From contig NZ_OEQB01000005.1 of NCBI RefSeq assembly GCF_900240295.1, positions 124,001-188,000 of the forward strand: a DNA stretch of 64,000 nucleotides. The letters are read 5' to 3'. How positions within the stretch are numbered: position 1 is the first letter of the stretch; the number at the start of each line of letters is the position of its first letter. Shown here piece after piece: positions 18,787 to 21,547 of the stretch. The stretch comes from Megasphaera vaginalis (ex Bordigoni et al. 2020) (GTDB lineage: Bacteria; Bacillota; Negativicutes; Veillonellales; Megasphaeraceae). Below the pieces are notes generated by a model. It worked only from the letters and a program-made list of their open reading frames with translations, searched no databases and was not told the DNA's origin. A program made the translations under genes and the position numbers.

Positions 18787-19579
18787 ATGTTTCCTTCATG
18801 ATCTCGTTGTTAAAAATTTCCTTTCCCAGCGTTTGGATCCAGAATCCGATAAGCTGTCCGTATGCGCCGTTGCCGTCTTCGGAAACGGACTGCAACAGCT
18901 GCGTCATGAATTGCTGCGCCCAGGTGTACCCGTAGCGCTCAAATACGCCCTTCCCGGATAAAGCGGGAACTCTTTCGATGAGCGGCAGAAAAACATCCTG
19001 CGTCACGTCGAGAAGCCGCGCCGTAATCGGGTAAACGTAACCGGAACCGGCCTTGCCCTCTTCCATGAACACCAATGCCAAGGAATCGGACCGGCCGGCG
19101 CCGTCAGCATAATCGAGATGATACGCTGCTAACGGCAGTTTCTGCCGGTCGGCTTCTTTGATAAGACGGTACGCGCCGTACTTGATCAGTTCATAGAGCC
19201 TGTCGTCATAACCGGACTCCATTTCGATGAGCTTCTCGCGCCATTCGCCCCACGTTAAAACGGCCCGGCAACGATAGTCGTCGAAAGATGCTTCACCGGT
19301 GAAGGCCTGAACGGCAGCGGCGCTGACTTCCAGTTTCGGTTCCGGAATGTGCCAAATCAACAGTTTTTGGTCCCTGTCACCGTAAAGACACTGCGACTCC
19401 ACCTGTACGGCAGCGTCACAGTGAGGACAAGTATAAAAAAACAGGCCTTCGTCCGTCAGCACACGGCGGCGCAGCGCGCCGTCGGCGGCATCAATATAAT
19501 CCCAAGTGGCAAAAGTTCCGTCTGTCCCGCAAGCGGGGCAGCGCAAAGATAACGTTACGGCATGACTCTTCGTTTCCAT
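18785..19579 (-). CDS. CpXC-domain protein
   Basis: 264 residues. Two CPxC pairs (CPACGTDGTF near residue 14 and CPHCDAAV near 51) form a zinc-ribbon-like knuckle typical of the CpXC family. The helical C-terminal part has no recognised signature. The family role is unknown. The ATG shares one base with the stop of the upstream macro-domain gene, so the two are coupled, and a joint role with an ADP-ribose-binding protein is possible (inference). Confidence 0.75.
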   Translation of the reverse strand: METKSHAVTLSLRCPACGTDGTFATWDYIDAADGALRRRVLTDEGLFFYTCPHCDAAVQVESQCLYGDRDQKLLIWHIPEPKLEVSAAAVQAFTGEASFDDYRCRAVLTWGEWREKLIEMESGYDDRLYELIKYGAYRLIKEADRQKLPLAAYHLDYADGAGRSDSLALVFMEEGKAGSGYVYPITARLLDVTQDVFLPLIERVPALSGKGVFERYGYTWAQQFMTQLLQSVSEDGNGAYGQLIGFWIQTLGKEIFNNEIMKET

Positions 19580-20300
19580 CAGTTGCTCTCCTCATATACT
19601 TGTAAGATCGAATCGGCAAGTACGTTCAGTGTCATAAAATTCCAATCTTCGGCCTCCCTTGAAGCAGCCCGGATAACAGGGTTGATCGCTTTCATGTTCG
19701 CGGCAAACCGAGACGGCTCCGGCAGCGGTTCCGCCGTCAACAACAACGCCAAGGCGGCAACCGTTTCCGCCGTCGTCCGGCCGCGATGCCAAGCCTGCAA
19801 AAGAAGCAGGGTGAGCTGCCGCACCACGGCAGCGCAGGCAGTCGCGTCAGCACAGACGAAATCAATCTGCTCGGCAAAAGCACCGCCGCGCAAGACGGCA
19901 GGCGCCAAAAGAGCCACAGCTTTCTGCAAGGGGAAACGTTTATCTTCCACGCTGATAAGCGAAACCGCCAGGTGCAGGAGTGTATTCTCCCGAGCCAGCC
20001 GCAAAGCCGCTTCACAGGCGCTGACCAAAAGGGCCGCTTCATTTTCCGTGCCGCCGCGCCAAAACGGTCCGCGACGGCATGAATGACATAACGCGCCGGC
20101 AGTTTGTATCCATACGTTATTTTGGCCTCTCCCTGCCGGCATCCTTGCAAAGACCGGCAGGCCGCGGTCAGAGAAATGCCGCCTTTGCGATGGACGGCAG
20201 CTGCCACCGTGCCGCCGCCGAGTAAGGTCGTACCGGCGGAAATGATGATCCCTGCCGCTTTCGAATCCGTTATATCGCCTTTAAAAACACGCAGCCGCAT
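19579..20300 (-). pseudogene. Macro-domain protein, frameshifted
   Basis: The N-terminal frame (20300 downward) encodes a clear macro (ADP-ribose-binding) domain start: VFKGDITD, IISAGTTLLGGGTVAAAVH and YKLPARYVIHAVADRF. The family then continues in another frame with WRGGTENEAALLVSACEAALRLARE. The shift lies in a run of four T (complement of 20061-20064). One extra T restores a single ~240-residue protein. The usual STGVYGFP loop reads SVEDKRFP, so the catalytic loop is also unusual. The downstream part (~100 residues) has no recognised domain. This may be a true pseudogene, a programmed shift or a sequence error. It is coupled to the CpXC gene. Confidence 0.75.
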
Positions 20301-20354: not shown

Positions 20355-21266
20355 TTATTTGACAAAGATCGTAATCGCCTGCTTCAACCGTTCGACGGCT
20401 CCCAAATCATTCTGTTTGACCGCTTCGACAAGGCAATGATCGATATGATCCTTCAAAATGACTTTGCTGACGCTGACGACGGCCGAATCGACGGCTGCCA
20501 GCTGAATCAACACATCACTGCAATCTCTGCCGCCCTCAATCATGCGCTTGACCGCTTCCAAATGACCGCTGATACGGGCCAAGCGATTGATGACAATTTT
20601 TTCCTGCTGATGATATCGGCCGCAGTGAGCGGACTGCGGCTGGTCTCCGGCAGCAGTCGGTACAGACAATTCCAAACAGCGTCTGGCTTTGACAAAATAG
20701 ATCGTCCCGTCATCAACGGCAGCCGTTACAACAAACCCTGCGCCGGTCAGCAACGTGCTCATGACATCGATCGCCGGCAAGGCTGCCTCTCCCTCCGCCA
20801 GGTGTCCCGGATTCATGGCATTGACCTTTTGCCGCCCCTGATCATGCATAATAATCAAATCGCCGCCGTCTCTGACGGCAGAACCGATCTGTTTAATGAA
20901 CCGGTGCGTATTCTTGCTCATGTGCGGGTAAAAGTCAAAGCATAAAACCGTATCGTACGTTCCCGGCGGCACATCATATTTTAAAATATCTTTTTCGATA
21001 AAAGAAATCCCCTCCAAGGCGCCGTACTTTTCCTTCGCCTTGGTCAACATCGCTTTAGAATAATCGAGAGCGTCAATACGGCCGCCGCCGAGGCGCGCAT
21101 GCAAATAGGGCAGCAAGACGCCGGTGCCGCAACCGACGTCGAGAACGACGGCCGCCGCCGGTATGTCGGCAAGGTCAAGGAGCCGACCGATCAGCGCCGC
21201 GTCTTCTTTCCTGTCACGATCCCAATTAGCCGCGTAATTATCAAAAAACATATGTTCTTTATCCAT
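20355..21266 (-). CDS. SAM-dependent methyltransferase fused to CsoR/RcnR-family metal-sensing repressor domain
   Basis: 303 residues from the ATG at 21266 behind GAGGAGGAA. Residues ~1-205 are a class I methyltransferase: VLDVGCGTGVLLPYL (SAM loop), DALDYSKAML (acidic loop) and DTVLCFDFYPHM. After a short linker, residues ~215-303 match the CsoR/RcnR/FrmR all-helical repressor: INRLARISGHLEAVKRMIEGG, then RDC and DHIDHC, giving the Cys-His-Cys metal ligand pattern of CsoR. Methyltransferases and metal-responsive repressors are normally separate proteins. The fusion suggests methylation of a metal or metalloid, or of a metal-linked substrate, sensed in the same chain (inference). No CopA or other metal gene adjoins it. 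Confidence 0.88.
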   Translation of the reverse strand: MDKEHMFFDNYAANWDRDRKEDAALIGRLLDLADIPAAAVVLDVGCGTGVLLPYLHARLGGGRIDALDYSKAMLTKAKEKYGALEGISFIEKDILKYDVPPGTYDTVLCFDFYPHMSKNTHRFIKQIGSAVRDGGDLIIMHDQGRQKVNAMNPGHLAEGEAALPAIDVMSTLLTGAGFVVTAAVDDGTIYFVKARRCLELSVPTAAGDQPQSAHCGRYHQQEKIVINRLARISGHLEAVKRMIEGGRDCSDVLIQLAAVDSAVVSVSKVILKDHIDHCLVEAVKQNDLGAVERLKQAITIFVK

Positions 21267-21547
21267 GCCAAGATTCCTCCTCTTCGTTCCCCTCAAAAGC
21301 GGCGCCTCTCAACGGGCCGTTTTCGTCAGCAGCCGCCCGTCAAAGCCGGTTTATCCCGCAAATACGCCGCAATCCCGCTTCTCCCGCTATGTACTCTTCT
21401 TAGTATACAATCATATGCGACCGTTTCCTATCCCTCCCCCGTGGTTTAAGGGATAAAAAACGCAGCCGCTTCTCATAAAGTGTACAGCAAGAAACGTATC
21501 CTTGCGTTTTACCGGATAAATGTCTTTCTTGGATGATTCGGGACCGC
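21267..21547. other. Intergenic region upstream of the methyltransferase-CsoR gene
   Basis: No gene is seen. A TATACT facing the methyltransferase (complement of ~21402-21407) may be its -10 box, but no good -35 box stands before it. No CsoR-type GC-rich palindrome was found by eye. Confidence 0.4.

Follow-up and report, generated by a model that had tools for sequence, protein, structure and literature searches.

A class I SAM methyltransferase and a metal-sensor domain of the CsoR/RcnR family are joined in one chain encoded in the window, the 64,000-nucleotide stretch of Megasphaera vaginalis DNA analysed here. The fusion is real and represents a new layout for the CsoR/RcnR protein family; no description of it was found in a literature search, for which subscription papers were mostly out of reach. 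With a probability of about two in three, the protein is a nickel-responsive CsoR/RcnR factor with an N-terminal methyltransferase that controls nickel import, replaces NikR and acts as an activator in its apo form. Regulators of this family are usually regarded as small repressors of efflux, whereas one branch of it appears here to run nickel import throughout a bacterial class, at promoters apparently built for activation and in genomes without detected NikR.

Structure of the fused gene

The minus-strand frame of the fusion (Table 1) begins with an ATG (MDKEHMFF), preceded by AGGAGG, and contains no internal stops. Only two Pfam domains were found in the 303-aa product, both above cut-off: Methyltransf_25 (residues 41–135, E 1.8e-18) and PF02583 Trns_repr_metal (residues 223–298, E 6.1e-25), the latter scoring 87.9 bits against a gathering cut-off of 22.8 and covering profile positions 3–76 of 78. 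In the predicted structure the methyltransferase fold is confident, the linker at residues 200–218 is unstructured, and the CsoR half, modelled as a single chain, comprises three predicted helices (217–244, 249–284, and 288–302). The initial annotation had described a class I methyltransferase with a GCGTG loop, joined in an unusual architecture to a CsoR-like domain with the Cys-His-Cys ligands RDC...DHIDHC, and all of this was borne out. A metal response of the CsoR-like half is probable.

Table 1. Features of the fused gene and its promoter, in window coordinates.
Feature	Position	Strand	Basis or remark
Fused methyltransferase-CsoR gene, 303 aa	20355..21266	-	Stop codon included; open frame and full-length orthologues
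Class I SAM methyltransferase half, residues 1–197, GCGTG loop at 45–49	20676..21266	-	Pfam, stand-alone orthologues, omega, confident predicted fold
Flexible linker with candidate ligand His219	20601..20675	-	pLDDT <50 at 200–218; His-rich in several relatives; InrS alignment
CsoR/RcnR-family domain, residues 223–298, Cys249/His274/Cys278	20373..20600	-	PF02583; invariant ligands; three predicted helices
Operator-like inverted repeat TATCCC-N15-GGGATA	21429..21455	-	Fusion's own promoter; candidate for autoregulation
Candidate -10 box TATACT	21402..21407	-	21 nt after the repeat; read from sequence

Distribution and origin of the fusion

Of the 15 genomes of the genus, 11 carry the full-length fusion, counting that of the window, and the other ten proteins are stop-free and share 48–58% identity with it. 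These full-length frames in other genomes rule out a frameshift or assembly artefact at the junction. A search of 380 genomes of the class with the methyltransferase profile revealed four further fusions in other genera (G065, G067, G109, and G283) and many stand-alone methyltransferase orthologues of about 200 aa; a scan of genome contigs recovered only distant methyltransferases, which had no more than about 33% identity across most of the query.

Split versions of the two halves are known. In G015, from a second genus of the family, the methyltransferase gene is located in a TonB operon and the CsoR gene beside a gene recognised by eye as LarA-like, while in genus g7 the nearest stand-alone CsoR relatives (about 61% identity), carrying His-rich N-terminal tails, are encoded at the end of nik operons. 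Yet all 15 fusions form a single clade in the maximum-likelihood tree (support 100/98), adjoining the stand-alone enzymes; the fusion is thus old and has a single origin, and its methyltransferase half descends from the stand-alone methyltransferases encoded at the ends of ECF-S/TonB-receptor operons. In close pairs omega is 0.08–0.11 for the methyltransferase half and 0.01–0.22 for the CsoR half, and these low values indicate that both halves are kept by selection, which is purifying in the methyltransferase half. Each genome of the genus also encodes a second, more distant CsoR paralogue (33–36% identity).

Metal ligands and relation to known sensors

Cys249, His274, and Cys278 are invariant in the 11 fusions of the genus, and His219 is nearly so (10 of 11). 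The four residues align with His21, Cys53, His78, and Cys82 of InrS, the Synechocystis nickel sensor of the CsoR/RcnR family, which were identified as nickel ligands by XAS (PMC7055735); His21 was non-essential in mutagenesis (PMC4235346). Judged by this alignment, the His-Cys-His-Cys set of the fusion is InrS-like and not like that of copper-sensing CsoR.

InrS (PDB 5fmn) is the second-best solved match to the CsoR half (E 4.6e-15), the best in sequence being 6ahx (E 2.7e-19), a CsoR-like "putative cytosolic protein" that, unlike the fusion, is a stand-alone chain of 101 aa. InrS has in common with the fusion a link to nik import, which it enhances (PMC7055735), but it is a stand-alone protein without a methyltransferase, is best known for repression of nrsD efflux and has another operator context. 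RcnR, the Ni/Co sensor and efflux repressor of Escherichia coli, belongs to the same family; however, its last ligand is His where the fusion has Cys, it controls efflux, and its NCBIfam model gives 31 of 138 bits on the fusion, far below cut-off. NikR resembles the fusion in the role proposed here, control of nickel import, but it belongs to an unrelated family, with a ribbon-helix-helix and a NikR_C domain. No NikR_C domain was found in the 19 genomes tested, among them the window's genome and the tested fusion genomes, while the controls were positive, and NikR-type regulation was rejected for this reason.

Gene neighbourhoods

Five fusion genes (L033, L128, L129, L130, and L131) are divergent to an operon for a NikABC-type importer, which encodes a solute-binding protein together with two permeases and two ATPases. 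The highest score of the binding protein is with a nickel SBP family and that of the permease with nickel permeases, but neither reaches its curated cut-off. In most cases the fusion gene is not adjacent to the importer, and the nik binding protein was not found in the window's genome. The CsoR genes that adjoin nik operons belong to the CsoR subclade of the fusion, whether fused or not. LarC is encoded in all fusion genomes, and two genomes of the same genus without the fusion are also without LarC.

Most stand-alone methyltransferase orthologues are encoded after an ECF S component (PF12822) and a TonB-dependent receptor, and several have ExbB/ExbD close by. This operon of S component, receptor and methyltransferase is conserved across the class (L132–L138, L144–L146, L148, L149, L151, and L152), and genes recognised by eye as CobN-like chelatases occur near some of its copies. 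It is possible that the operon serves as an uptake route for a metal-ligand complex.

A second methyltransferase family, of about 250 aa, is encoded divergent to or within nik operons across the class (L033:7906–8649, L131:8720–9472, and L043:6907–7614) and also carries the operator described below in several genomes. Two methyltransferase families are therefore tied to nickel import.

The operator and its targets

A de novo motif search of nik promoters yielded a 19-bp operator with the consensus TATCCCC-N5-GGGCTTA in one orientation (log-likelihood 148.6 versus 60–71 in shuffled sets). To judge from its sequence, the site preceding the linked genes is a G-tract pseudopalindrome of the kind expected of CsoR/RcnR operators. 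Over 729 kb, all matches of at least 21.9 bits fell in nik promoters or, outside the motif training set, at the ECF-S/TonB/methyltransferase operon of G283. Other targets outside this set were larC of G001, the NikB-type permease of G007, and the CbiM/NikM-type operons of G000, G002, G006, G009, G011, G012, and G013. A looser pattern matched exactly upstream of the G007 permease and, in G001, 68 bp ahead of larC, where the identity of LarC was confirmed; sites upstream of larC were found only in G001, and a coding frame extends as far as larC in several of the other genomes. In the window's genome a mismatch-tolerant search located ATCCCCCCTATGGGCTTA directly upstream of the CbiM-type ECF operon. 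The CbiM/NikM-type promoter reads TATCCCCCCTATGGGCTTA, and the site of the window's genome, or a variant of it, stands ahead of this operon in the last six of the genomes listed.

Taken together, all 15 fusion genomes have the operator ahead of a nickel/cobalt importer; the importers are of two unrelated types. The pattern TATCCCCNNNNNGGGCTTA was matched 78 times in the 380 genomes of the class, against a single match for its reversed control, and almost all of the 78 sites adjoin nik or CbiM/NikM genes. Many genomes of the class carry the operator without the fusion, and these class-wide matches indicate that it is probably older than the fusion. The nik operons of G015 and G016 (L182 and L183) are without it, and their promoters are of the canonical TTGACA/TATGAT form; G015 keeps its split stand-alone CsoR even so. 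The ECF importer is named CbiM by NCBIfam, a cobalt assignment, and cobalt could be the metal of this importer. No Rfam riboswitch was found around the fusion gene or at the importer promoters, and no cobalamin riboswitch at the ECF importer; riboswitch control was rejected on this ground.

Another protein, for instance the second CsoR paralogue, could recognise the operator, with the fusion a bystander that has a different regulon. The many genomes with an operator and no fusion, and the very presence of the paralogue, agree with this, but the CsoR genes next to nik operons are those of the fusion's own subclade, and the operator stands at an importer in every fusion genome although the 15 fusions span several genera, which makes the proposal improbable.

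The linked and operator-bearing genes also bear on the role that the initial annotation had suggested, a sensing and modification protein for a metal or metalloid, on the pattern of stand-alone repressors of metal efflux. A copper or metalloid sensor controlling efflux would agree with the Cys-His-Cys core, common to Cu(I)-sensing CsoR, and with the occurrence of ArsM among class I methyltransferases. However, both the neighbours of the fusion and the genes that carry the operator are nickel/cobalt importers and nickel-cofactor genes, so the classic efflux-repressor role does not apply; His219 is nearly invariant, and the ArsM NCBIfam models give only 32.1 of 510 and 23.1 of 575 bits on the fusion, far below cut-off, which leaves metalloid modification without support as well. 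Such a function is highly improbable, and arsenic or metalloid methylation and copper efflux were rejected for want of supporting context or family score.

Two groups of further sites were observed. The operator lies 35–36 bp upstream of genes for a MATE-family exporter (PF01554; L306:7442 and L314:5134). Two more sites (L277:1501 and L319:6278) precede a HypE-like gene, whose product has AIR synthase-related domains, and a short frame without a family match that looks HypB-like by eye; these are possible hydrogenase-maturation targets.

Promoter layout and proposed regulation

In 51 of the 63 distinct sites the -10 box begins 19–21 nt past the operator, and in 42 of them at exactly 20 nt, versus 2.25 sites on average and at most 8 in the shuffled control. 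The -35 position is occupied by the 3' end of the operator, where the match to TTGACA is 2.69 of 6 versus 2.43 for random sequence. The fixed -10 spacing and the lack of a recognisable -35 box place the operator centre near -42, the classic position of a class II activator. This arrangement would fit an activator, in line with the behaviour of InrS at import genes.

The DNA affinity of RcnR/CsoR nickel sensors falls on nickel binding, and InrS, besides repressing efflux, boosts expression of the nik operon for import (PMC7055735). Since nickel weakens DNA binding in this family, InrS raises nik expression and the operator is centred near -42, an apo-activator is the simplest homeostatic scheme. 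The CsoR domain of the fusion would bind the 19-bp operator at low nickel, and the apo-protein near -42 would activate promoters that have no -35 box, namely those of NikABC-type ABC or ECF CbiM/NikM-type importers and, in some genomes, of larC and the TonB/ECF-S operon. Binding of Ni(II) to His219, Cys249, His274, and Cys278 would release the fusion from the operator and shut import down. Both steps are proposed from the promoter layout and the InrS precedent.

The same regulon could obey the opposite logic if the fusion were a nickel-loaded repressor that blocks RNA polymerase, as nickel-bound NikR represses import operons elsewhere (PMC7055735), and the overlap of the operator with the -35 region suits such a mechanism. 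The near-random -35 score speaks against it, while the operator-free nik promoters of G015 and G016 do have TTGACA, and the characterised nickel sensors of the CsoR/RcnR family lose DNA affinity with nickel; this alternative is rather unlikely but deserves some weight.

If the apo-activator scheme is correct, the use of a CsoR-family protein throughout a bacterial class to activate nickel import in the class II manner would on its own be a novelty. No description of a nickel regulon in this class was found in the literature search, which covered few subscription papers, and the operator pattern makes this regulon directly testable.

The methyltransferase half

Structural matches of the predicted structure support a Rossmann-like class I fold. 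D43, G45, G47, T48, G49, and D68, corresponding to the SAM loop GxGxG and the acidic ribose ligand, are invariant, and the candidate active-site residues P114, H115, H141, D142, and R145 are, together with the SAM loop, invariant in the fusions of the genus and in the split G015 orthologue. For METHYLTRANSFERASE, membership in the ArsM, DVU_1556 or CpaM families is unsupported by family scores, the NCBIfam models of the latter two giving 46.4 of 155 and 45.9 of 180 bits on the fusion.

The nearest solved relatives are small-molecule methyltransferases, among them, by sequence and fold, the O-methyltransferases CysG/BelI (PDB 9fcd and 9fce; PMC11408123), at about 20% identity. His115 aligns with the second His of the CysG His-His-Asp metal site, but the first His is Pro in the fusion and the match of the Asp is not established, so no common mechanism is claimed.

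The methyltransferase half may be active as an enzyme, and, given the position of its kin in TonB/ECF uptake operons, its substrate may be taken up along with the metal. Most tentatively of all the steps proposed, it would work on a small molecule travelling with nickel, and the fusion would keep enzyme and regulator in step. By linking the regulator to a methyltransferase family of TonB-receptor uptake operons, the fusion points to an organic nickel carrier. The more specific idea that the methyltransferase processes an imported nickel-carrying ligand while the CsoR domain senses the freed nickel and switches the importer is doubtful; if true, one protein would unload the cargo and switch its own importer.

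The methyltransferase half could instead have ceased to be an enzyme and become a sensory or structural domain, binding SAM, SAH or a nickel ligand and feeding the CsoR domain. Its tethering to a DNA-binding domain would suit such a role, which we nonetheless consider unlikely in view of the invariant SAM loop and candidate active-site residues and of the omega of about 0.1; these observations are compatible with either catalysis or ligand sensing.

The fusion promoter and downstream genes

The pattern TATCCCN{3,16}GGGATA occurs once in the window's genome, as the inverted repeat in the fusion's own promoter (Table 1), and the chance expectation of the repeat in the window is 0.11 at one mismatch. 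The candidate -10 box follows at the 20–21 nt spacing of the importer promoters. The repeat is termed operator-like only, because it exceeds the nik operator in length and misfits the nik PWM. As a general operator the pattern was rejected, since its matches in other genomes are scattered, one of them lying in a mobile-element-like region; a pattern modelled on the window's own repeat gave no matches.

Directly downstream of the fusion is a macro-domain gene (19579-20300, minus strand), frameshifted near 20070 in the window's genome, where the N- and C-terminal parts of intact relatives correspond to two separate but overlapping frames. A gene for a CpXC-domain protein (PF14353; 18785-19579, minus strand) follows the fusion and the macro-domain gene in most genomes of the genus.
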